Part shown: positions 5,127-54,942 of the stretch, one piece after another
Layout of the letters: every line of letters begins with the position of its first letter
Position numbering within the stretch: position 1 is the first letter of the stretch
From: Chitiniphilus purpureus
GTDB lineage: Bacteria; Pseudomonadota; Gammaproteobacteria; Burkholderiales; Chitinibacteraceae
Length of the DNA stretch: 64,000 nucleotides
Direction of reading: 5' to 3'
NCBI RefSeq assembly: GCF_025642115.1
Contig: NZ_CP106753.1
Coordinates: forward strand, 2,317,501 to 2,381,500
The notes under the pieces: model-generated
What the model was told of the DNA's origin: nothing
The model's input: only the letters and a program-made list of their open reading frames with translations
Databases searched by the model: none
Made by a program: the position numbers and the translations under genes

Positions 5127-5477
5127 ATGTTGGGTAAATTGAGGCATTTTTTCACTAGCGCATTTCGGGGGCAGGCACCGCTATGGGTTGTATGGTGGGG
5201 CTTTGTCGTAGGTGGGTATATCTGGCTCAGGGTTCTGGGTGGCGGCTACTTTGCTTTGGCGATGTTTCTATCCACTACTCTCCATTGGGAAGTGTATGGG
5301 TCGATTTACTTTTCGTTGTTGTTTCCGCTATTGGTGTTAATCATATTGCATGCGGTTTTTTCCGTCTTATTTGTTTTCAGATGTGCGCCGAACACCCAGT
5401 CTGTATTCTTTGCCTCCGTGGCAAAGGCAGTAATTGTGGTCTTCATCATGTTCAGGATTATCTATCATTTAAGTTAG
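5127..5477 (+). CDS. Small integral membrane protein of unknown function
   Basis: This 116-aa protein has about three hydrophobic segments: around residues 18-50, 55-85 and 95-115. Between the second and third lies a short polar loop with the only cysteine. The DNA is clearly more AT-rich than its neighbours, suggesting horizontal origin. No Shine-Dalgarno sequence precedes the ATG, so the start is uncertain. I do not recognise the family. Confidence 0.5.
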   Translation: MLGKLRHFFTSAFRGQAPLWVVWWGFVVGGYIWLRVLGGGYFALAMFLSTTLHWEVYGSIYFSLLFPLLVLIILHAVFSVLFVFRCAPNTQSVFFASVAKAVIVVFIMFRIIYHLS

Positions 5478-5620
5478 CCCCTGCCCTATTCAAGGGGCAT
5501 CAAATGCCCAAGCCGGGCTTTGCGGTGGCTGGTTTGGAAACCTGGCCACTTGGCGAATCGGGCCGTGCCCCTGCAGCAAGACGGCACGCGTCTCGCAGCG
5601 CATCTCAAACGGAAGACACC

Positions 5621-6983: not shown

Positions 6984-7447
6984 GGGGTGGCCTCATTGGG
7001 TGCGTTTTGATCAAGTGCAATCGCCTCACGGCGGAGGATGGTGACGGCGAGCCGTGCTCGGGTGGTGGCTGCATTGAGCAGTCCGACTGTGATGCGTGGC
7101 AGCAGCTCAACGTAGCGGTCAATCAGTCCGGCGATGATGCGGCGCTGTTGTGTGCTGGGTCGGAGCGCCCTGGCTTGCTGCGCATGCGCTGTTTCGGCTG
7201 CGCGGGATAGCTGGGTGACGGCAGCACATGCATTGTCATAGAGCGGGCAATTGCGCAGCTCGCCGGCGATGAGCTGCAGGGCGACCATGGTCTCCAGCAG
7301 GATATCCAGGCTGATGCCATCAGCCCGGCCGCTGGCAAAGCGATGGGCGTGGCACAAGGCCAGCAGCTGGAAGTGTTGAGCGTCCTGCTCGCCAACCACC
7401 TGCCGCCCGGCAAGCATCAAGAGGGGATTGATCTGATCTCGTTTCAT
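6980..7447 (-). CDS. Helical phage protein, unknown function
   Basis: This 155-aa protein is translationally coupled to the Dam gene: its ATG lies in the ATGA that ends Dam. That overlap selects 7447 as the start over a longer frame that would cover the end of Dam. The sequence is almost all helical and rich in Ala, Leu and Arg, with no transmembrane segment. I see no family match. Its place beside a methylase suggests an early accessory role only. Confidence 0.65.
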   Translation of the reverse strand: MKRDQINPLLMLAGRQVVGEQDAQHFQLLALCHAHRFASGRADGISLDILLETMVALQLIAGELRNCPLYDNACAAVTQLSRAAETAHAQQARALRPSTQQRRIIAGLIDRYVELLPRITVGLLNAATTRARLAVTILRREAIALDQNAPNEATP

Positions 7448-8292
7448 GCGAGCATTCCGGAGAATAAGCCTGTTGATTGCAGTGCGCGGCTGCATGTGGG
7501 GTTGAGCCATAGGGTTTCGACGCGATCCAGTCCGCCATCGGCATGTGTGCCGCGCGTGCTGGTTTCCCAGCTGGCGTACAGCTCGTCGTAGAGCGGGCAG
7601 GTATAGCCCGATACCACCACCATGCCGGCACATTCGTGCAGCACGCGGGCCAGCTCACAGTGATCCTGGTCGCTCATCTCGTGGCGATAGCCTTTGCCGG
7701 AGCGGGTGACCGCTGTGGAGCGGGTGCCGTGGACGTAGGGCGGATCGACGTAGTGCAACGTTTGCGGCGCGTCGTGCTGCTGGATGATGTCCACCGCCTG
7801 CCGGCATTCGATCACCACGCCGGCGAGCCGCTCGGTAAATGCCTGGATCGCCGGTGGATAGTTGACCCAGTCGCGTGACGGATGGGTGGACTGGCGGTTG
7901 CCGTTGGCTCGAAACCCCGAGGCCGCCCCGGATGCCGAGTCGCTACCGAACCCCAGGAACGATCGCACCACGGTGCGGCGAGCCTGCTCGATGGGGTCGT
8001 CAGTCGGGATGTACGACTCGTCGAATTCCGCTCGGGCATAGGGGGTGTAGGCCAGCAACTGTGCCAGCCGAGAGGCTGACTGCTGATCGCGCAGCACGCG
8101 GAACAGGTTGACGATCTCGCCGTCGAGGTCGTTGTAGACCTCGACCATCCGCGCGCGCGGTTTGCGCATCAGTACGCTGCCGGCGCCGCCGAACGCCTCG
8201 GTGTAGATGCGGTGGTCTGGAAAATGCTGGATGATCCACGGTGCCAGCAGCCATTTTCCGCCGTGGTATCTCAGCGTTGGTCGGTGAGGCAT
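7444..8292 (-). CDS. DNA adenine methyltransferase (D12 class, Dam-like)
   Basis: This 282-aa protein is a D12-class N6-adenine methyltransferase, normal in length. The AdoMet-binding motif is EAFGGAGSVL (about 32-41), preceded by the YHGGK motif (9-13), and the catalytic motif IV is DPPY (183-186). It transfers methyl from AdoMet to adenine in phage or host DNA. Target specificity cannot be read from sequence. Phage Dam enzymes usually protect against restriction or tune replication and packaging. It overlaps the flanking genes on both sides. Confidence 0.93.
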   Translation of the reverse strand: MPHRPTLRYHGGKWLLAPWIIQHFPDHRIYTEAFGGAGSVLMRKPRARMVEVYNDLDGEIVNLFRVLRDQQSASRLAQLLAYTPYARAEFDESYIPTDDPIEQARRTVVRSFLGFGSDSASGAASGFRANGNRQSTHPSRDWVNYPPAIQAFTERLAGVVIECRQAVDIIQQHDAPQTLHYVDPPYVHGTRSTAVTRSGKGYRHEMSDQDHCELARVLHECAGMVVVSGYTCPLYDELYASWETSTRGTHADGGLDRVETLWLNPTCSRALQSTGLFSGMLA

Positions 8293-8543
8293 TTCGATCT
8301 CCGAAACCAGCAGCGGAACACCGCCATTGCGGCGACGATCCCGAACGGTCCGCCCAGGATGTAGCCGGCGATCTCCAGGCCCGATGCGTCGGGGCCGAGC
8401 TTAAGCACCAGCAGCTGCGCGGTGCCAATTAATCCGCTGTTGAGAAAGGCGGCGGCGTAGTGGCCGCCGTTGGTGAATTGGCTTTGCAGGCCCAGCGCGA
8501 ACACCAGGGCAAAGGTGCAGGCAAACAGGGTGATTGCTGTCAT
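8271..8543 (-). CDS. Two-helix membrane protein
   Basis: This 90-aa protein has two predicted membrane segments (residues about 3-22 and 55-75) separated by a polar loop containing NGGHYAAAFLNSG. The ATG at 8543 lies in an ATGA overlap with the dcm stop and has GGAG at proper spacing. A GTG three codons upstream would sit on that GGAG. The 3' end overlaps the Dam start by 22 bases. Small two-helix proteins of this sort are common in phage early regions; function unknown. Confidence 0.65.
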   Translation of the reverse strand: MTAITLFACTFALVFALGLQSQFTNGGHYAAAFLNSGLIGTAQLLVLKLGPDASGLEIAGYILGGPFGIVAAMAVFRCWFRRSKCLTDQR

Positions 8544-9301
8544 GGCATGCACTCCATGGCTACTTCAATGAAGACCCGCGCTACTTCGGCGTTGATGGCA
8601 TTGCCGTAGGCGCGCAGTCGTCCCAGCACTGCGGGAGATCCATCAACCCACGGGACAAAGCCGGGTTCACACGCACGCGTCTTTCCATCTCTGCATCGGA
8701 TGGCTTGGGTAAAACGTCTTTGAGGTTGTGGCATCCGGCCAGGCTCTTGGCCCTGGCTAACTGCTCGTCTGATCGCGGGGTGATCTGATCCATGACTGCT
8801 GGCGTCGGCCACAAAGAAAAACCGCTCTCTGAGGCCTTCTGCGCCAGCGCTCGCGGCTTCGATAGGCATTGCCCCCATGGCGTATCCCAGCGCACCCAGG
8901 TCACTGTGCACAAGTGCGAGCCATTCAGGCGCTCGCGCAACCTGCTCTCCAAAGATGACTGCAGGGCGACACTCTTTGATGAGGTGGTGGAAGGCTGGCC
9001 ATAGGTGCCGCTCGTCAGCAAACCCAGCTCCTTTGCCTGCCGCGCTGAAAGGTTGGCACGGACAGGAACCGGTCCAAACAGGTCGATCATCGGGCCATCC
9101 AGCGCGACGCAGTGCGTAGGACCAGACGCCGATCCCTGCGAAAAAGTGGCACTGTGTGTAGTGTCGAATGTCATCGGGGTGTACGTCCTCTATGGAGCGT
9201 TCGTCGACGTCGCCGGGGGCGATATGCCCGGCTGCAATCAGGTTGCGGAGCCACTGGGCTGCGAACGGGTCGCGCTCGTTGTAGTAGGCGGAGTTGCTCA
9301 T
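8540..9301 (-). CDS. DNA cytosine-5 methyltransferase (phage Dcm type)
   Basis: This compact C5-cytosine methyltransferase (253 aa from 9301) has motif I as HFFAGIGVWSYAL, motif IV as GSCPCQPFSAAGKG with catalytic Cys82, motif VI in degenerate form as GEQV instead of ENV, a RERFFFVA element equivalent to motif VIII, and a C-terminal AYGNAINAEVARVF motif X. The target-recognition region is short, as in other phage forms. The start is ambiguous: an in-frame ATG at 9328 overlaps the previous gene, and neither site has a clear ribosome binding site. A 197-codon frame is embedded in it. Confidence 0.9.
   Translation of the reverse strand: MSNSAYYNERDPFAAQWLRNLIAAGHIAPGDVDERSIEDVHPDDIRHYTQCHFFAGIGVWSYALRRAGWPDDRPVWTGSCPCQPFSAAGKGAGFADERHLWPAFHHLIKECRPAVIFGEQVARAPEWLALVHSDLGALGYAMGAMPIEAASAGAEGLRERFFFVADASSHGSDHPAIRRAVSQGQEPGRMPQPQRRFTQAIRCRDGKTRACEPGFVPWVDGSPAVLGRLRAYGNAINAEVARVFIEVAMECMP
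8581..9174 (-). CDS. Overlapping frame inside dcm, possible second gene
   Basis: A 197-codon uninterrupted frame lies wholly inside the dcm gene, on the same strand but in another frame. Its product contains LSARQAKELGLLTSGTYG, a Ser/Thr-rich stretch, and a later SLWPTPAVMD segment. From memory, conceptual proteins with these signatures are common in phage genomes. The two frames are locked together: the ARQAKELGLL codons are the shifted reading of the Dcm motif IV SAAGKGAGF codons. It may be a real overlapping gene or only a conserved shadow of a constrained gene. Confidence 0.35.
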   Translation of the reverse strand: MTFDTTHSATFSQGSASGPTHCVALDGPMIDLFGPVPVRANLSARQAKELGLLTSGTYGQPSTTSSKSVALQSSLESRLRERLNGSHLCTVTWVRWDTPWGQCLSKPRALAQKASESGFSLWPTPAVMDQITPRSDEQLARAKSLAGCHNLKDVLPKPSDAEMERRVRVNPALSRGLMDLPQCWDDCAPTAMPSTPK

Positions 9302-9311
9302 GTGATGAGGG

Positions 9312-10241
9312 CTATTCGCACAGGCCATACGCCGAGGCGCAGGCGGTTGGTTCGATCAGGCCGGCCAGCAGGTCGTACTGGCGCCCGCCGCGGCTGGTCT
9401 TGGCCCACTCCACGCGCTCGTGGATGCGCTCCCATCCGCCACTGAAGAGAAAGCTCGCTTTGCCTGACCGGCTTACTTCGTTGACCAGCTTTTCCCACTC
9501 AGCGATGCGCTGGATGTGCTCAGGGAAGCGCGCGGCGATCTGGCGTAGCTCGGATTTGCCGACATTGATGCAGGGCATGCAGCCGACCCGGTCCATGCCC
9601 TGGAGATACAGCGGATTGGGTTCGACGCCGTTTTGGGCCAGAAAGCCGAAAACGGCATCTGCGGTCCAGTCGGCGATAGGGCGGTAGGCATAAAATCCCG
9701 GGCCGATCCGTTCGAAGCGCTGGACATCTCGTCGTCGGGCCGATTCATCCCTGCGAACGCCCTGCCAGCTGACGACGGTATGGCCCTGGTCGATGAGGTC
9801 TATCTGATACTCCACCGCCGGGTTGCGTTTCAGCTCCTCGGTGCAGAATTGCCGACCGTGGGAGGGAAACATGCCCTTGAGCAGGCACAGGTCCAGGAAC
9901 GGATTGCCAGTCGGATGCATCAGCGCCGCGGCCTGGGCTGCGCGTTCCGCCGTCCACTGGAATTTGGCGGTAGGGTGGTAGTCGGGTCCGCCTGCGGCAA
10001 TCGCTTCGAGCCGGGCGCGGTGCACGGCGAAGCGATCGGTGAAATCCGCGCGCAGACGATGGATCGTGATGTCGAGTGTGTGTTCCAGGTAGTCCAGATA
10101 ATCGTGGACCGCCTGATGCTCGTTGCCGGTATCGCAGAAGATTGCGCGGACCCGATGCCGGCCGAACCGGCGCAGCGCCAGCAGGAGGGTCGCCGCGCTG
10201 TCCTTGCCGCCGGAGACGGAAACGACGTGGATGATGCCCAT
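9312..10241 (-). CDS. PP-loop ATPase of the PAPS reductase/DndC family
   Basis: This 309-aa protein is an adenine-nucleotide alpha-hydrolase of the phosphoadenosine phosphosulfate reductase superfamily. The PP-loop is SGGKDS (10-15). Family elements follow in order: CDTGNEH, CTEELKRNP, GVRRDESARRRD and a GCMPC pair that with the earlier Cys could bind an iron-sulfur cluster as in DndC-like enzymes. The substrate is unknown; sulfur transfer to nucleic acid or a small molecule is possible. The ATG at 10241 has GGAG 6 bases upstream. It lies between dcm and small genes in the early operon. Confidence 0.82.
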   Translation of the reverse strand: MGIIHVVSVSGGKDSAATLLLALRRFGRHRVRAIFCDTGNEHQAVHDYLDYLEHTLDITIHRLRADFTDRFAVHRARLEAIAAGGPDYHPTAKFQWTAERAAQAAALMHPTGNPFLDLCLLKGMFPSHGRQFCTEELKRNPAVEYQIDLIDQGHTVVSWQGVRRDESARRRDVQRFERIGPGFYAYRPIADWTADAVFGFLAQNGVEPNPLYLQGMDRVGCMPCINVGKSELRQIAARFPEHIQRIAEWEKLVNEVSRSGKASFLFSGGWERIHERVEWAKTSRGGRQYDLLAGLIEPTACASAYGLCE

Positions 10242-10259
10242 GGCGGCTCCAGGCATTGA

Positions 10260-11789: not shown

Positions 11790-12304
11790 GTCCTTTCCTT
11801 TGCAGCCTTGAGCGCTGCCTTGTAGCTGGCCTTGGCCTCTTTCCGCGTCGGCTTCCATTCGCCGGCCACCTCGTCGATTCCGTAGGCCGTGTATTTGATG
11901 CGGACGTAGCGCACGCAGTTTCTGGGCGCACCGTACCGACTGCCGCTGTATTCGAGCTGCGGGAGCGCGATGCCAAGCCATTCCGCGAAACTCTCACTGC
12001 ACTCACTGGCCCGGTAGTGGGCGTAGCTGCCCTCTTTGGGTGGCGGCGGCGCGGGCGGCAGGTTGTCGATGGCGTAGCTCTTGCCGGCCGCGGTGACGTG
12101 GAATACCTCGTCGCACGGGTCGCAGAACCTGGGTGTTGGGCTGCGCCCCATCAGCCCCATCAATACCAGCGCCTCAAGGTCTGCCTGATCGGGATGACCA
12201 TGACCAGCTACAAAGTGATTGCGGGATGGCTCGCGACGGTCGGGCCGCAGCTCTAGGGTGTGGTGCAGCAGCCCAAGCTGATACGTCGTGACGTGCATGC
12301 TCAC
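11786..12304 (-). CDS. Conserved phage protein, unknown function
   Basis: This 172-aa product has a GTG start at 12304 that overlaps the previous stop (GTGA) and follows AGGAGG. The N-terminal part has RNHFVAGHGHPDQADLEALV and GLMGRSPTPRFC, a pattern I associate with conserved phage hypothetical proteins. A CDPCDEVFHVTAAGKSYA stretch looks like a C-terminal winged or ribbon element. The last 40 residues are Lys-rich. No function can be assigned. Confidence 0.6.
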   Translation of the reverse strand: MSMHVTTYQLGLLHHTLELRPDRREPSRNHFVAGHGHPDQADLEALVLMGLMGRSPTPRFCDPCDEVFHVTAAGKSYAIDNLPPAPPPPKEGSYAHYRASECSESFAEWLGIALPQLEYSGSRYGAPRNCVRYVRIKYTAYGIDEVAGEWKPTRKEAKASYKAALKAAKERT

Positions 12305-13215
12305 GGCTTCACCTCCTGCAGGATGGTGGCGGGGTCGATGGCGCGGATAGCGTCGGCCTGCTCAACCAGTTCCATCAGGTATTGCGCACCATCACCTGGG
12401 TATTCCCACGCTCCGGTACTCCTGTCGTAGCTGCCATGATCGTGGTGATAGTCGTTGGCACGCTCAACCAGTGTGTCTGCCGCCGCGTCAAGTGCAGCCC
12501 CTACCACCCGCTCGCCATACGCACGCAGCGCGTCGTCGGGGGATTGCTGGGCGAGGGTGGCGTCCATGTCAGCCCGCATGGAAGGCAGGTCGTTCAGTTC
12601 CGCAAGCGTTGCGCTGGCTCTCTCCATCGCCTCCCGCAGCCGCGCCACCTCCGCCTGCGATGCGGTCAGTTGCTCGCGCAGAGCGCTGATCTGATCCTGA
12701 TACTCGCAGCGATGATTGCCGTAGTCGTCGCCATAGCCCCGGTGGCAGCTGTTTGCGGCCAGGGCGGAGCATTCGCGCTTCGTGGCATCCAGCTCATCCA
12801 GCAGCGCAAGCACCGTGGCGGGGTTGGCGGCGGCGATCAGCCTTGCGTCTGCATGATCGATATCTGCGCACCAGCCCTCATGGTGTTCGCGTCCAGCAAA
12901 GGGGACGATCCAGTCGAGGCGGTCGCACACCCGGTACATGATGTTCATCCCCGCCTCAGATAACTCCCGCAGACGGATAACCGCGCCGCCCATCCCCCAG
13001 CGCTCGAAATCCATCACGGTCAGGTCGTACTGAGGGATGCCGCCGACCAATTGCATGGATTTGTGCTTGGCGTTGACCTCCCAGCGCCACGGCCCCGGCG
13101 TCGCTGCCTGCGCCAGCCTGCGCAGCTCGTCGTGGTTGGTCTCCCGCACTTCCACCGGAACGATGACCCCGAAACGAGCCAGGCGGGGGTCTGCCTGATA
13201 TTTCTTCTCCATCAT
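12301..13215 (-). CDS. Ead/Ea22-like phage protein
   Basis: This 304-aa protein has the Ead/Ea22 arrangement: an N-terminal ELRRLAQAATPGPWRWE block, a DADARLIAAANPATVLALLDE-type motif, then a coiled coil (about 175-210) and a tail ending IRAIDPATILQEVKP. Family members are early accessory proteins of lambdoid phages with no firmly established role. It is coupled by ATGA overlaps on both sides. Confidence 0.75.
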   Translation of the reverse strand: MMEKKYQADPRLARFGVIVPVEVRETNHDELRRLAQAATPGPWRWEVNAKHKSMQLVGGIPQYDLTVMDFERWGMGGAVIRLRELSEAGMNIMYRVCDRLDWIVPFAGREHHEGWCADIDHADARLIAAANPATVLALLDELDATKRECSALAANSCHRGYGDDYGNHRCEYQDQISALREQLTASQAEVARLREAMERASATLAELNDLPSMRADMDATLAQQSPDDALRAYGERVVGAALDAAADTLVERANDYHHDHGSYDRSTGAWEYPGDGAQYLMELVEQADAIRAIDPATILQEVKP

Positions 13216-19865: not shown

Positions 19866-20191
19866 CAGGCCTCGTTACGGTGGCCTGCCGACTCGGGGCG
19901 GATTGCCGCGCGCCCACGCGGTGCCCGGCTTGGCTGGTCGTCCTCTGCGGTTTAAGGCTGTTGCCATCGTGGTTTTGCCCTGCCTGTCGTCAGCCCAGGC
20001 GCCGCCACGCGCATCCGATCCAGCCGGCCACATCGCATCGCTGCGTGCGCCGGGGTTTGTTGTGCCAAGTTTTGAAAGAGCGCCCCGCCTCGCCCCTGTA
20101 GGGTTCGGTCGCGGCAGGCTCTTGCTGGCTGGTGCCATCTGCACCGGGTCACCCGGCCCCGGGCGCCTGCCGCTGGGTGGGTGTTGATATC

Positions 20192-20221
20192 AATTTAGCG
20201 TTACGCAAATGTGTGTGTCAA
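20192..20221 (-). promoter_or_regulatory. Leftward early promoter PL
   Basis: On the minus strand a perfect -35 TTGACA (20221-20216) is followed after 18 bases by TAAATT (20197-20192). Both elements are overlapped by operator copies (20194-20209 and 20220-20237), so bound repressor would block polymerase. It points to the leftward early operon. Confidence 0.8.
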
Positions 20222-20237
20222 TAGCGAAACGCGAAAT
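20194..20237. promoter_or_regulatory. Left operator cluster OL (two sites)
   Basis: Two copies of the consensus WWTAGCGNNACGCNAA lie at 20194-20209 (TTTAGCGTTACGCAAA) and 20220-20237, with centres 26 bases apart. The same motif occurs three times between the repressor and Cro genes. Site match is by eye; binding is inferred. Confidence 0.8.
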
Positions 20238-20390
20238 TCGTATGCAAAGTTGCGCCGCACGGCGGGCTGGGGTTCGGGCAGCTCAGCGTGCGCTATCGCC
20301 CCATTAGATTTTTTCAGTAAGGTTTGACCTTACATACTCTGCAGACCATGAGGAATATCATGATTTAATGATGTTTTTCCGGAGTACGAC

Positions 20391-21032
20391 ATGTCTCCAG
20401 CTGAGGCCGAATTGATGCAGGCTCTGGGCCGGGCAGATAACTTGGTTCAGCTGGCTGCTCTGTGCCCAAAGATCAAGGACGTGCTGCAGGCGCAGCGATT
20501 GTTGGTGCACGTGCGCATGGCCCGTCAGCTGGATTTCATCCAGTTGTACAGCTCAGAACCTGAGCCGGTTCGGATTGCCTCGGAGCAACTGTGGCGCGAC
20601 CCGCGCAGCCCGATGGCCCATCATGCCCGGACCAGCTCCTGCGCAATGGTTTGGTGGCCGGGCAGCGGGCTCGACGTGTGCCTGCCCCAGGTGCCGTACG
20701 GCGGGGTGGCGATCACCGTTCCAGATCATGCGCCAACGGGCGAAAGTGTGGCGATCACGGCCTGGCTCGGCGCCGAATATGCGGGCGACTACCCGCTTGG
20801 GGTGATGCAAACCTTGCTGAGCGCGCAGTGCAAGGCCATGTTGACGGCGATCTCTACGCAGGCTGCGGTAGTGCGCACTGGTCGGCGTCGTGACTTGGCG
20901 TTTGCGTATGCGCAAGCTGGCTACTCAGCCAAGGCGATCGCGCACCATACGGGTCTAAGCATTCACACCGTTCGTCGCTACCTGACCGATCTGCGCGCAA
21001 TGGAAGCGTCAATTTCGGACGTGGTTGGGTAG
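20391..21032 (+). CDS. LuxR-like regulator with autoinducer-domain-like N-terminus
   Basis: This 213-aa protein has the outline of a LuxR-type receptor. Its C-terminus is a helix-turn-helix of the NarL/LuxR sort: AGYSAKAIAHHTGLSIHTVRRYL (split here as AGYSAKAIAHHTG and LSIHTVRRYL, residues 176-198). The N-terminal domain has WRDP with Asp70-Pro71, an H-A-R segment, a VWW at 87-89 and GGVAITVPDHAPTGESV, which align with the conserved D70, P71, W85 and the G-x-x-x-P strand of acyl-homoserine-lactone receptors. The usual W57 and Y61 are not obvious, so the ligand may differ or be absent. GGAG precedes the ATG. It lies between the two operator clusters. Confidence 0.55.
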   Translation: MSPAEAELMQALGRADNLVQLAALCPKIKDVLQAQRLLVHVRMARQLDFIQLYSSEPEPVRIASEQLWRDPRSPMAHHARTSSCAMVWWPGSGLDVCLPQVPYGGVAITVPDHAPTGESVAITAWLGAEYAGDYPLGVMQTLLSAQCKAMLTAISTQAAVVRTGRRRDLAFAYAQAGYSAKAIAHHTGLSIHTVRRYLTDLRAMEASISDVVG

Positions 21033-21102
21033 TAAGGACCACTCTTTCCTGACGCTGCCTTTCTTCCTTGTCCGCCTAAGTTAGAAAGCCACTCGTCGGC
21101 AA

Positions 21103-21124
21103 AACTGCGCATTGATGCGCAGTT
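21103..21124. promoter_or_regulatory. 22-bp perfect palindrome between the LuxR-like gene and the 68-aa ORF
   Basis: AACTGCGCA, then TTGA, then TGCGCAGTT. There is no T-run, so it is a poor terminator. It lies 120 bases upstream of the 68-aa ORF and could be a regulator binding site. It resembles a lux box (CTG and CAG ends) but is two bases too long in the centre. Confidence 0.5.
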
Positions 21125-21244
21125 CACGTGCCACCCATCCTGATATTGCATGCGTTTTGACGTACTGGCGCAATACCCCCTTGCGCCGACAAGCGGCAGT
21201 AAATAACGTCTTGGAAACGCATATGTCATCAGGCGGAAATAGGG

Positions 21245-21451
21245 ATGTCTTACGAAGTTAATAATAAACTTGCTTGTTTGAAAGCTATCGAACAAGAAGA
21301 GGTGGGCGCCATCGTGCGTGAGCTAGCAGTCATTCTGGCAAGGCTGGGCGCGAACTCAAAAGAGGCTGCCTATGCCGCGATTGAGGAGATGGCTGATGTA
21401 GATGGTGGGAGCAAGGACGCAGGAATCGGGCGCCCGAGCATGAGCGCCTGA
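21245..21451 (+). CDS. 68-aa protein beside the repressor, candidate antirepressor
   Basis: This small soluble protein has a helical body (CLKAIEQEEVGAIVREL.. then SKEAAYAAIEEM) and a flexible C-terminal tail. GGCGGA and AGGG precede the ATG. It is convergent with the repressor gene, with 7 bases between the two stops, and lies downstream of the LuxR-like gene. I do not recognise the sequence. The antirepressor idea is only by position, on the model of phages in which a quorum receptor switches on a small protein that inactivates CI. Confidence 0.5.
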   Translation: MSYEVNNKLACLKAIEQEEVGAIVRELAVILARLGANSKEAAYAAIEEMADVDGGSKDAGIGRPSMSA

Positions 21452-21458
21452 GGCGTAG

Positions 21459-21944
21459 CTACGAGCGACCAGCCTTCATCGATTTGACAAGAGCTTTCAC
21501 GGTGTTGAGGACGATAGCGGCCTGTTCTTTGCTTAGGCCCTGCATCAGTGGGGTGAGGCGGGCAACTTCCCGGCTGATAGCTTCCTCGTCCGGCGACGTA
21601 GAGTGTTCCAACTGGTACTGAGTCGCGGGTTCCTGAGCGAGGGAAGGGTGCTGAGGTCCAGTGGTATGAGCATTGGCGCCGGCTTTCGCGCCCAGATCGA
21701 GCAAGGCATTGCTGTGATCAATGTCCAGCCAGCCACGCTGTTTGCCATTACCTGCCTCGATTTTACGGGCCGTTTCCTTACGCATTCCCCTGGGCTTGCC
21801 TGTCTTGGAGTCCTTCGCGCCGTCCCGAAGGTTCAGGAATTGCGCAAGTGTCATCCCGGCATTCCTTGCTGCCATCGTGGCTGACCCCTGCTCAGCCTCG
21901 ATGAGGCGAAGGTTGTCGCGGCGGATTTCATCGATGTCTTTCAT
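21459..21944 (-). CDS. CI-like repressor lacking the peptidase domain
   Basis: This 161-aa protein has an N-terminal helix-turn-helix of phage repressor type: EIRRDNLRLIEAEQGSATMA, AGMTLAQFLNLRDG, then SKTGKPRGMRKETARKIE and GWLDIDH. The rest is a polar linker and a short C-terminal helix (about 120-158). The S24/LexA-like peptidase domain of classic CI proteins is absent, so RecA-stimulated self-cleavage is not expected. It is divergent from the Cro-like gene, with three operator copies between them. It should maintain lysogeny by shutting off the leftward and rightward promoters. Confidence 0.82.
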   Translation of the reverse strand: MKDIDEIRRDNLRLIEAEQGSATMAARNAGMTLAQFLNLRDGAKDSKTGKPRGMRKETARKIEAGNGKQRGWLDIDHSNALLDLGAKAGANAHTTGPQHPSLAQEPATQYQLEHSTSPDEEAISREVARLTPLMQGLSKEQAAIVLNTVKALVKSMKAGRS

Positions 21945-21956
21945 TTGCCCGTATGG

Positions 21957-22024
21957 AATAGCAAAACGCTAATGTATGTAAATGCGCGTAACGCTATTGC
22001 TGACTGTTTCGCGTAGCGCTAAAC
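21957..22024. promoter_or_regulatory. Right operator cluster OR (three sites)
   Basis: Three copies of WWTAGCGNNACGCNAA lie at 21957-21973 (forward), 21983-21999 (reverse) and 22007-22024 (reverse), centred about 25 bases apart. The arrangement between divergent repressor and Cro genes mirrors lambda OR. Confidence 0.85.
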
Positions 22025-22025
22025 T
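21997..22025 (+). promoter_or_regulatory. Rightward early promoter PR
   Basis: TTGCTG (21997-22002) and TAAACT (22020-22025) are spaced by 17 bases and overlap two operators. The -10 lies only 6 bases before the Cro ATG and there is no ribosome binding site, so the cro mRNA is probably leaderless. Confidence 0.75.
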
Positions 22026-22031
22026 GAGCGC

Positions 22032-22256
22032 ATGGACCTCAAAACATACCTGCTCGCCGCCAAAGGGCGCGGCGCTGCACTGGCGGCCGCGCTGGGTGTG
22101 AATCAAGTACTGATTTCAACCTGGGCGCATGGCAAACGTCCGGTTCCGGCTGGACGGTGCCCAGCGATTGAACGTGCGACAGACGGGCAAGTTCGTTGCG
22201 AAGAACTTCGCCCCGATATCGATTGGGCGTACCTGCGCGGTACAGGAAAGGGGTGA
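22032..22256 (+). CDS. Cro-like (YdaS family) DNA-binding protein
   Basis: This 74-aa protein fits the YdaS/Cro family: MDLKTYLLAAKGRGAALA, GVNQVLISTWAHGKRPVPAG, CPAIERATDGQVRCEELRPD and a DWAYLRG end. It should compete with the repressor for the three sites directly upstream and favour lytic development. No Shine-Dalgarno sequence is present; translation is probably from a leaderless mRNA. Confidence 0.88.
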   Translation: MDLKTYLLAAKGRGAALAAALGVNQVLISTWAHGKRPVPAGRCPAIERATDGQVRCEELRPDIDWAYLRGTGKG

Positions 22257-22364
22257 CGCATTGATCCATCGCTACATATCCCCGTTTTCTTGATACCCCT
22301 ATTTTCAGCGCGCGCGCACGCGCGAGCTACCTATCGCCCTGTAGGTTGACCCGGAGACGTCCCC

Positions 22365-22844
22365 ATGTCTGTGCGAGATGTGATCCACCAGTTGTGCCTG
22401 CAGTTTCCAGGCGGCTATGACGCGATGGCTGTCGCCGTCGGGGTGAGTACCGGCGCCATGCTTCGCCAGAAGGTGCTGGGCCACAAAGGCGCACGGCTGG
22501 ATATCGACGAAGCACTGATGATCCAGTCGGCCTCGGACAATCACCAGGTGATCGAGGCCCTAGCCCGGGAATGCAATGGCCAGTTCGTCTACGTGCCTGC
22601 TGCAAGCGCGGTGGATCGAGTCGATATCGGCAGAGCCCTGAGCGAGCTGAGCATCCGTACGGGGGCATTGGCCCAAACGTTCAGCGAATCCGTGCGGGAC
22701 GACGAACTCGACCTGATCGAGCGCCGCGCGCTCGAAGCCGGGGCCCGTGCCGTGGGCGAGTGCGCCATGTCGTTTGCCGCGCTGTGTGTTGCGGTGTACG
22801 GCAACGCCGACGCCCAAGGGGCTGGCGACGATGGCACGGCCTGA
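22365..22844 (+). CDS. CII-like regulator (phage CP76 family)
   Basis: This 159-aa protein matches the phage CII (CP76) regulatory family: VIHQLCLQFPGGYDAMAVAV, GVSTGAMLRQKVLG and LDIDEALMIQSASDNHQVIEAL at the N-terminus, followed by a helical region. Members activate repressor transcription or other lysogeny promoters in related phages. It is second in the rightward operon after cro and its end overlaps the next gene by 14 bases. Confidence 0.8.
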   Translation: MSVRDVIHQLCLQFPGGYDAMAVAVGVSTGAMLRQKVLGHKGARLDIDEALMIQSASDNHQVIEALARECNGQFVYVPAASAVDRVDIGRALSELSIRTGALAQTFSESVRDDELDLIERRALEAGARAVGECAMSFAALCVAVYGNADAQGAGDDGTA

Positions 22845-53577: not shown

Positions 53578-54942
53578 ATGACCGCAATCGTGCGTGACGC
53601 TACGGCCGGGCGGGCGTTGTTGGTTCAGGATCATCAGCGCAACCGGCCGCTGACGAACAGCCGCCCGGGGGTACCGTTTTTCGCATTTCCCCGGGCGCGG
53701 CCAGCAGGGGTTACGCTGAGCGGTAGCCCGGCCGAGAGCTACGAGATGTACGAGGGCGAGTGGTGCATGAAGATCACCACGCCCGTTGGGGCATTTACCG
53801 ACATCGTCCTGCCCGTGCCAACGCCGCTATCGCTGCCAGATGGTGATATCACTGCGCTCGTCCACATTGAGTCGGCCACCAATTGCCTGTCGGTGAATTT
53901 GTTCGCCGCTGACAGCGTAGGGTATGCAAACTACAGCTACGCCGGGCAGTCCAATCCGGCGGCGCCGACGTTCCCCACGATCGCTCGACAGGGATATGTG
54001 CATATCGGAATCAACCTGGCGACGGGCGATAACGTGACTGATCCGCAGCGTGAGTGGGTCGTAGGTGCCGGCACCGGGATGGCGTTTGCAACGACCCCTG
54101 TTGCGGCGGCCAAGCTGCGCATCACGCCAGCGGCGGGGACGCAGGCCACGGTGCGGATTTTCGGGGTCTGGTACAAGGAGCGGGCAAAGCAATCGTCGAT
54201 CGTGCTCACCTTCGACGATGGCTGGGCCACGCAGCATTCCGCAGCGCTGCCGATCCTGGAAAAATACGGATTGCGTGCCAGCCTGGGCATTATTGGCCCG
54301 CTGATCAATCAGTCCAACTACATGACTACCGGGCAACTGCGGGAATTCATCGCGGCCGGCAGCGAATGTGTGGTACACGGCAACCCCAGCAACCCGGCGT
54401 ATCCGGGCCGGCTGAACCTGGCGTGCTATGACACGATCCCTGAAATCCGGGCCGACCTGCGCGCCAATGCCGATTTTCTGCGCGCCAATGACCTGGTCAC
54501 CAATAACTCCGACCAGGTCTACATTTACCCGCAGGGTGTATGGCAACACGCCAAGGACGACCGCAGGATCCTGGATGCGCTCGCGCAGGAGGGGTTTACG
54601 GCTGCGCGCGGGACCGTGACCAATGCGGTGTCGATCATCGGTGGACGATTCGCTCGCTACGATCGGTGGCAGATCCCGATCATCGGGCATCTTTGGGCCG
54701 GCGCCGGCGCGGGGCTGGAGGACGCAAACATCACACGCATCATCAACCGCATGACCACGGCGGTTAACCAGGGGCGATGCCCCTGGCTGACCTTCCACCA
54801 GTTCCGAGCGCCGACAAATCAGCAGGACATCGATCCTGCTAATTTCGAGAAAATCTGTGCGGCCATTGCTGGATTGATCAACAGCGGCACCGCAGTCAAC
54901 CTGCTGGCAACGGAGTTTGTAGCTGAGTCGCTGGCTCAGTAG
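53578..54942 (+). CDS. Polysaccharide deacetylase (CE4/NodB) domain protein
   Basis: This 454-aa protein has an N-terminal beta-rich part (about 1-200) that looks like a fibre or carbohydrate-binding module. A CE4 NodB-homology domain follows: SSIVLTFDDGWATQHS carries the metal and catalytic aspartates at about 213-216, then GIIGPLINQSNYMTTGQL and a VVHGNPSN motif 2. It would remove N-acetyl groups from polysaccharide or peptidoglycan. No signal peptide is seen, so it may be a virion depolymerase, or act on the lysed cell or as a lysogenic conversion gene. A terminator follows. Confidence 0.82.
   Translation: MTAIVRDATAGRALLVQDHQRNRPLTNSRPGVPFFAFPRARPAGVTLSGSPAESYEMYEGEWCMKITTPVGAFTDIVLPVPTPLSLPDGDITALVHIESATNCLSVNLFAADSVGYANYSYAGQSNPAAPTFPTIARQGYVHIGINLATGDNVTDPQREWVVGAGTGMAFATTPVAAAKLRITPAAGTQATVRIFGVWYKERAKQSSIVLTFDDGWATQHSAALPILEKYGLRASLGIIGPLINQSNYMTTGQLREFIAAGSECVVHGNPSNPAYPGRLNLACYDTIPEIRADLRANADFLRANDLVTNNSDQVYIYPQGVWQHAKDDRRILDALAQEGFTAARGTVTNAVSIIGGRFARYDRWQIPIIGHLWAGAGAGLEDANITRIINRMTTAVNQGRCPWLTFHQFRAPTNQQDIDPANFEKICAAIAGLINSGTAVNLLATEFVAESLAQ

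Follow-up and report, generated by a model that had tools for sequence, protein, structure and literature searches.

A divergent LuxR-like regulator, a small open reading frame and a short repressor in a Chitiniphilus purpureus prophage: a candidate induction module with a counterpart in a second prophage-like region

The immunity region of a Chitiniphilus purpureus prophage was analyzed within a 64,000-nt stretch of the 4.19-Mb contig NZ_CP106753.1 (the window, whose coordinates are used unless stated otherwise). Spanning positions 20190–22260, the region is composed of left operator-like sites (OL), a rightward transcription factor (TF) gene, a rightward small open reading frame (smORF), a convergent gene for a CI-type repressor, right operator-like sites (OR) and a rightward gene for a Cro-like protein. 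What is new here is that the same chromosome holds a second region resembling a prophage, in which this layout recurs with an unrelated repressor. A prophage with a non-self-cleaving repressor must have another way out, and the arrangement may tentatively be considered, with somewhat less than even confidence, as an induction module that is independent of DNA damage and works like the TF-smORF modules of other phages. An earlier note made from the sequence alone had proposed a quorum-linked lysis switch at this location. Its open reading frame (ORF) coordinates and its placement of the TF between OL and OR were borne out by ORF and pattern checks, and its interpretation is partly supported.

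The second prophage-like region

The TF (20391–21032, + strand) is a 213-aa protein for which ORF, profile and fold searches indicate a divergent LuxR-like N-terminal domain and a C-terminal helix-turn-helix (HTH). A paralogue is encoded in the same genome (G000:C1:3420114-3420710; L004:7612-8211, minus strand) with 36% identity over residues 2–200 (E = 8.5e-26; 35–38% across alignments), the two proteins being 199–213 aa in length. The order OL – TF – small ORF – CI – OR – Cro is repeated around the paralogue. Operator-like sites are located before the TF (L004 8327–8390) and between the repressor and Cro (5465–5528), as judged from a pattern that was drawn by eye, allows up to four mismatches and also matches two other places in L004. 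The repressor is an HTH protein with no S24 match and a Cro-like ORF is present. The small ORF (L004 5919–6083 for 54 aa, or to 6149 for 76 aa) converges on the repressor gene with a 20-bp overlap. Since two ORFs, one of 183 aa and one on the reverse strand, intervene, it is not adjacent to the TF. Its coding score is not outstanding (−0.088), with those of its repressor (−0.185) and Cro (−0.334) being lower still.

The repressors of the two regions are dissimilar, as 1240 of 2000 shuffles reach their score. Both regions nonetheless have eight DNA pieces in common (32–1272 bp, 79–97% identity), which may be considered in terms of either recombination or a common origin, though the repressors differ. 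Among these, window positions 53674–54942 and 12036–13138 match G000:C1:3407472-3408740 and 3425543-3426447, and the longer blocks are 79–94% identical. Because the TFs are paralogous and are preceded by the same operator, the sequences suggest that both prophages could wake on a common cue. Beside the second TF, a 330-aa ORF (L004:8493-9485) contains approximately 24 tandem copies of a nine-residue motif that includes ASSTG; long ORFs are open in several frames across these repeats.

A shared promoter and palindrome

The approximately 70 bp that precede the two TF genes are identical at 56 of 72 alignment columns (78%; none of 1000 shuffles reach the score), whereas the coding DNA is identical at 288 of 579 bases (50%) in a codon alignment. 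Both promoters contain the palindrome GTAAGGTTTG(A/T)CCTTAC, in the alignment GTAAGGTTTG(A/T)CCTTACATAC, and, at a distance of 37 bp from it, AATATCAT. In the window, the alignment with the upstream DNA of the second TF defines a promoter region at 20293–20361 (+ strand) that ends in a −10-like TATCAT (20356–20361). Pattern scans place the 17-bp palindrome, GTAAGGTTTGACCTTAC, at 20317–20333 as a candidate TF operator. If TATCAT serves as the −10 element, the center of the palindrome would be near −43, or about 43 bp before the presumed transcription start. LuxR-type activators often bind near −43.

When the whole genome was scanned for GTAAGG-N5-CCTTAC with up to one mismatch, three places were identified, all of them exact, and two are the TF promoters. 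The reversed pattern gave no exact match and eight with up to one mismatch. The third site (L031:4046-4062; G000:C1:408045-408061) has a different spacer and is upstream of a methyl-accepting chemotaxis-like gene, named from a reading of its sequence; this site may be due to chance, or the same regulator may have a target in the host here. The 19-base core of the operator had no exact match in viral contigs, nor in genome contigs, where near-self records were possibly excluded. A search of 399 genomes of the order with the promoter DNA returned the locus itself and one 18-base match; the reach of this search is short, as the 78% identical copy at the second TF was not reported. No clear TF dyad is present immediately before the small ORF, and the imperfect copy GTAAGGACCACTCTTTC at 21032–21048 is weak, with 10 of 12 half-site bases.

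The TF as a remote relative of LuxR

The earlier note had described a LuxR-type HTH together with several sequence features, and the residues themselves (D70-P71, W88-W89 and GVAITVP at 105–111) are confirmed in the translation of the TF. The label is loose with respect to Pfam, since the GerE HTH family remained below its curated cut-off for both the TF (E = 0.21) and the paralogue (E = 0.20), and was the last of the 16 sub-threshold families listed for the TF. No match to the autoinducer-binding domain (Autoind_bind, PF03472) was found at E ≤ 1 for the TF or in the list up to E = 10 for the paralogue. A remote similarity is nonetheless seen between profiles. When the two TFs were compared as a pair to 13 LuxR proteins by hhalign, the E-value was 1.5e-5 with none of 200 column shuffles reaching the score, and the similarity spans both TF domains. 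The N-terminal domain alone matched weakly (P = 9e-4, probability 23%), with a score of 27.5 compared to 25.7 for the best of 200 shuffles. The LuxR alignment retained 13 of 14 matches, as L017 is close to L016 and was dropped, and the host LuxR was trimmed at its N-terminus.

In a sequence-profile search, TraR (2q0o) ranked first of the six PDB sequences listed (E = 0.027). The structural model of the TF is of low confidence, with a predicted local distance difference test score (pLDDT) of 46.7; its first Foldseek match was again TraR (E = 0.1, TM = 0.25), and LuxR-type receptors made up 25 of the 50 matches listed from a total of 135. From these profile and model comparisons, the relationship to LuxR looks real but remote. 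No other relative of the TF was identified in the collections searched. A tblastn search found none in phages with either TF and none in plasmids with the TF of the window; short-peptide scans of viral and genome contigs, which reach close relatives only, identified no other relative, and neither did a DNA pattern of the TF motif in viral contigs. Searches of 43 genomes of the family and 399 genomes of the order returned the C. purpureus genome only, while among 369 genomes of the class, three others matched merely towards the HTH end of the TF profile. An additional weak match elsewhere in the C. purpureus genome (E = 0.026, 29%) was not counted as a relative.

Four canonical ligand contacts (Trp, Tyr, Asp, Trp) are invariant in the 13 aligned LuxR proteins and correspond to W57, Y61, D70 and W85 in TraR numbering. 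Three of the four are lost in the TFs, and only the second Trp (W88) is kept in both. The D70 named in the earlier note sits three residues before the Asp column of the alignment and is replaced by Ala in the paralogue. The paralogue also lacks five residues in the region of the contacts. A TVP-x-HAP-x-G stretch that resembles the LuxR region is kept in both TFs. Since just one of the four contact residues remains, an acyl-homoserine lactone would not be the default expectation for a ligand. The host does encode LuxR and LuxI side by side, away from the prophage and with the only LuxI found in the genome; a lactone signal may be present for this reason. Within 5 kb around these two genes, no GTAAGG dyad was found with up to three mismatches. 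The activating cue is probably a small molecule, and not necessarily the acyl-homoserine lactone of the host.

The repressor and its relatives

The 161-aa CI-type repressor (21459–21944, − strand) was characterized by Pfam, PHROG and phage similarity. Searched without its first residue, it matched no Pfam family at E ≤ 1; an S24 domain thus went undetected, in agreement with the earlier note. The N-terminal half has a match in PHROG 12107, 'transcriptional repressor' (E = 7.9e-34), and, over 77 residues, 64.9% identity to gp41 of Burkholderia phage KS9, which a title in the reference list of PMC8310193 (Lynch 2010) names as the repressor of this phage. Conservation of this domain extends to seven phage records (61.5–68.7% identity over 77–83 residues). 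The protein thus combines membership of a repressor family and operator-like sites at OL and OR with no S24 match, as is expected of a non-cleavable repressor. SOS control through a LexA-type box was considered and rejected; with up to one mismatch, none was found between 8074 and 28177, and the 12 sites in the window compare to 17.4 expected.

The OL/OR pattern WTAGCGNNACGCNAA was drawn by eye from the sites that it describes, which start at 20195 and 20221 (OL) and at 21958, 21983 and 22008 (OR). OL site 1 (TTAGCGTTACGCAAA, 20195–20209, +) and OL site 2 (ATAGCGAAACGCGAA, 20221–20235, +) are candidate repressor operators, and the three OR sites are at 21958–21972 (+), 21983–21997 (−) and 22008–22022 (−). 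With up to two mismatches, six further places are scattered in the window, for 14 rows in total compared to 6.4 in shuffles. A leftward PL-like promoter, TTGACA-18-TAAATT (20192–20221, −), rests on a consensus match that is found once in 20150–22100 where 1.0 is expected; OL site 1 falls within it and OL site 2 abuts it.

Relatives of the repressor were considered as a set of 29 viral contigs that carry this N-terminal domain, several being near-duplicates, with repressor lengths counted from the match. In all 16 contigs with a 127–132-aa repressor, a convergent gene of the KS9 gp40 type overlaps the 3' end of the repressor gene, as judged with a gp40 profile to which three of these 16 had contributed. 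The gene was found in none of the four contigs with a 242–260-aa repressor, for which a peptidase is presumed from length, and in none of the nine with 136–156 aa. The 16 contigs are L049–L052, L054–L061, L063, L065, L067 and L068, and L009, L010 and L045 show the same arrangement; the gp40-type gene encodes approximately 95–141 aa. KS9, BgManors32 and the genome G319 carry the same repressor/gp40-type pair. No Pfam or PHROG family matched gp40 above chance. The gp40 profile had no match among ORFs of at least 50 aa in the window and the second region, the 68-aa protein of the small ORF included, and the TF profile had none at E ≤ 0.1 among 2539 ORFs of the 29 loci. Small genes that converge on a short repressor therefore recur with different sequences, a pattern that is compatible with a repressor partner but is no proof of one. 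The gp40-type genes are candidates for an antirepressor or repressor-partner family, and the comparison thus points to a second candidate antirepressor family that faces KS9-like repressors. Among repressors with the same N-terminal domain, those of 156 aa and of the Pseudomonas phage type are overlapped by a convergent 43-aa ORF (L072, L074, L075, L076 and L012:3446-3577; unlisted for L073) that is not known to be real.

The small ORF and the intervening DNA

The 68-codon ORF (21245–21451, + strand) is plausibly real and is convergent with the repressor as the earlier note had described, its stop lying 7 bp from the repressor stop. Its coding score of +0.083 bits per codon is near those of the TF (0.110) and the repressor (0.109), and is above the 95th percentile (0.035) of 110 spurious ORFs but below the 99th (0.213). 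Since a 50-aa ORF antisense to the start of the TF scores equally high (0.116), and since the 99th percentile is not reached, the coding support is moderate. A single-sequence AlphaFold model of the candidate antirepressor has α-helices at residues 2–33 and 39–50 with a mean pLDDT of 66. No homologues were found in the searches made. The locus thus has a DNA-binding TF gene beside an ORF of less than 100 aa that lacks homologues, as in TF-smORF modules. The small protein was also compared to the C-terminal tail of the repressor as a possible mimic, which was discarded after 125 to 1018 of 2000 shuffles reached the real score with two hidden Markov models of the tail.

A 22-bp palindrome after the TF (21103–21124), which the earlier note had mentioned, is present with 10 of 11 pairs, a quality reached by seven dyads in the window. 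A hairpin explains it better than a regulator site. The palindrome folds on both strands (z = −3.3 and −2.9) and runs into TTTT on the − strand, which encodes the repressor, where the repressor transcript may be weakly terminated. It is more likely to act in this way, or as another RNA element, than as a TF operator; no counterpart was found in the second region, and the dyad common to both regions is upstream of the TF. Another imperfect dyad of 21 bp, GGCGCAA-N7-TTGCGCC, is 5' of the small ORF (21167–21187) and weak as RNA (z = −1.2). Within 20150–22100, no terminator-like site was found save one inside the TF gene.

Comparison with known systems

TF-smORF modules have been described by Silpe et al. 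2023 (PMC10432266) as VP882 VqmA-Qtip and those of phage 72, phage 63, Apop and ARM81ld. The search that led to them was directed at linear plasmid-like phages whose repressors are autoproteolytic; the authors state a need for different search strategies elsewhere and describe the natural cues of the modules as not known. The locus described here is alike in that a phage TF neighbors a small ORF with no homologues, close to a repressor, which is the proposed target, in a polylysogen. It differs in several respects. The small ORF is counter-oriented to the TF in the known modules, while here, and likewise in the second region, the two share a strand (+ in the window). Their repressors are autoproteolytic by search design while no peptidase domain is detectable here, and they mostly reside on linear plasmids rather than within a 4.19-Mb contig. 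A known module did not cross-activate a co-resident prophage, whereas the two regions here share a TF family and operator, suggesting joint induction. If true, induction by one signal would be the reverse of the prophage-specific induction in the known modules, and one regulator family and operator placed over unrelated repressors would make cue-driven co-induction testable.

Compared to the LuxR receptors TraR, SdiA, LasR and CviR, the TFs are similar in their remote profile and fold-search similarity, C-terminal HTH, W88, and a dyad that would lie near −43. Unlike those receptors, they match neither Autoind_bind nor GerE above threshold, have lost three of the four contacts and are 199–213 aa long. 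The prophage LuxI/LuxR systems of Phaeobacter inhibens (PMC13345283) likewise concern a pair of prophages in one host whose lysis–lysogeny switch has LuxR-type regulators; these systems include a luxI of their own and promote lysogeny, while here the only LuxI found adjoins the host luxR. KS9 shares the homologous repressor N-terminal domain, a repressor too short for a peptidase and a convergent small gene at its 3' end (gp41/gp40). It differs as the gp40-type profile misses the 68-aa protein, and the only TF annotation within the 6 kb examined is an AlpA-type regulator. None of the publication titles listed in the literature searches, which lay largely outside of subscription papers, dealt with this arrangement.

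Proposed mechanism and alternatives

What the sequence shows is the layout of the genes, sites that look like operators, a promoter common to both regions, two paralogous TFs, a remote resemblance to LuxR and a repressor with no detectable S24 domain; activation, a ligand and antirepression are inferred. The TF would be a highly divergent LuxR-fold regulator that binds GTAAGG-N5-CCTTAC shortly before the −10 element of its own gene and switches on its own transcript. With no terminator found between them, this transcript may read on into the 68-aa gene, whose product would bind and inactivate the non-cleavable repressor. In the second region, the paralogous TF would act through the same operator on its own small ORF/repressor pair.

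Other explanations may account for parts of these data. An unlikely one is that the TF favors lysogeny or has an unrelated role such as superinfection control, with the small ORF being an independent partner of the repressor. This is in keeping with the Phaeobacter prophage LuxR/LuxI systems, which activate lysogeny promoters (PMC13345283), with the occurrence of the gp40-type gene in relatives that have no TF-profile match, and with the separation of TF and small ORF in the second region; however, the TF gene of each region points toward the repressor gene and has the small ORF on its own strand. The TF might instead act through transcription itself, by means of a rightward transcript that enters the repressor gene at its 3' end, so that collision or antisense RNA lowers repressor expression. 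The convergent genes, the 7 bp between the stops and the lack of a rightward terminator between TF and repressor would permit this, but the coding statistics of the small ORF resemble those of its neighbors, though not uniquely, and conserved convergent small proteins accompany related repressors; this reading is quite improbable.

About as doubtful is the binding of the palindrome by a host regulator rather than by the TFs, which would wire both prophages to a host signal. While conservation is higher in the promoter than in the protein and a third exact dyad precedes a host chemoreceptor-like gene, that site has another spacer, the recognition-helix region is alike in both TFs (GLS..TVR.Y..D), and the operator core has no exact match in the genome contigs, subject to the possible exclusion noted above. 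Very unlikely, and the closest to the earlier note, is a true acyl-homoserine-lactone receptor that hears the product of the host LuxI and turns on the 68-aa antirepressor. The host LuxI and LuxR, the remote LuxR similarity, and the W88 and TVP-x-HAP-x-G stretch kept in both TFs are weighed here against the loss of the canonical Trp, Tyr and Asp contacts, the five residues missing from the paralogue, the lack of an Autoind_bind match and the lack of a GTAAGG dyad around the host genes. As an extension of the induction module that we favor, the TFs could represent a new phage sensor-regulator family derived from LuxR and re-tooled for another ligand, such that a single signal, or either of the TFs, would lead to induction of both co-resident prophages, whose repressors are unrelated, by way of different antirepressors; this broader view is fairly improbable.

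Neighboring genes

The Cro-like protein (22032–22256, +) was identified by a Pfam match to YdaS_toxin, with P22_Cro just under the cut-off. It is followed by a CII-like regulator (Phage_CP76; 22365–22844, +) identified with Pfam and PHROG. Elsewhere in the prophage, at 9315–10256 and 7447–9328 on the minus strand, a PAPS-reductase-like gene adjoins two DNA methyltransferase genes.
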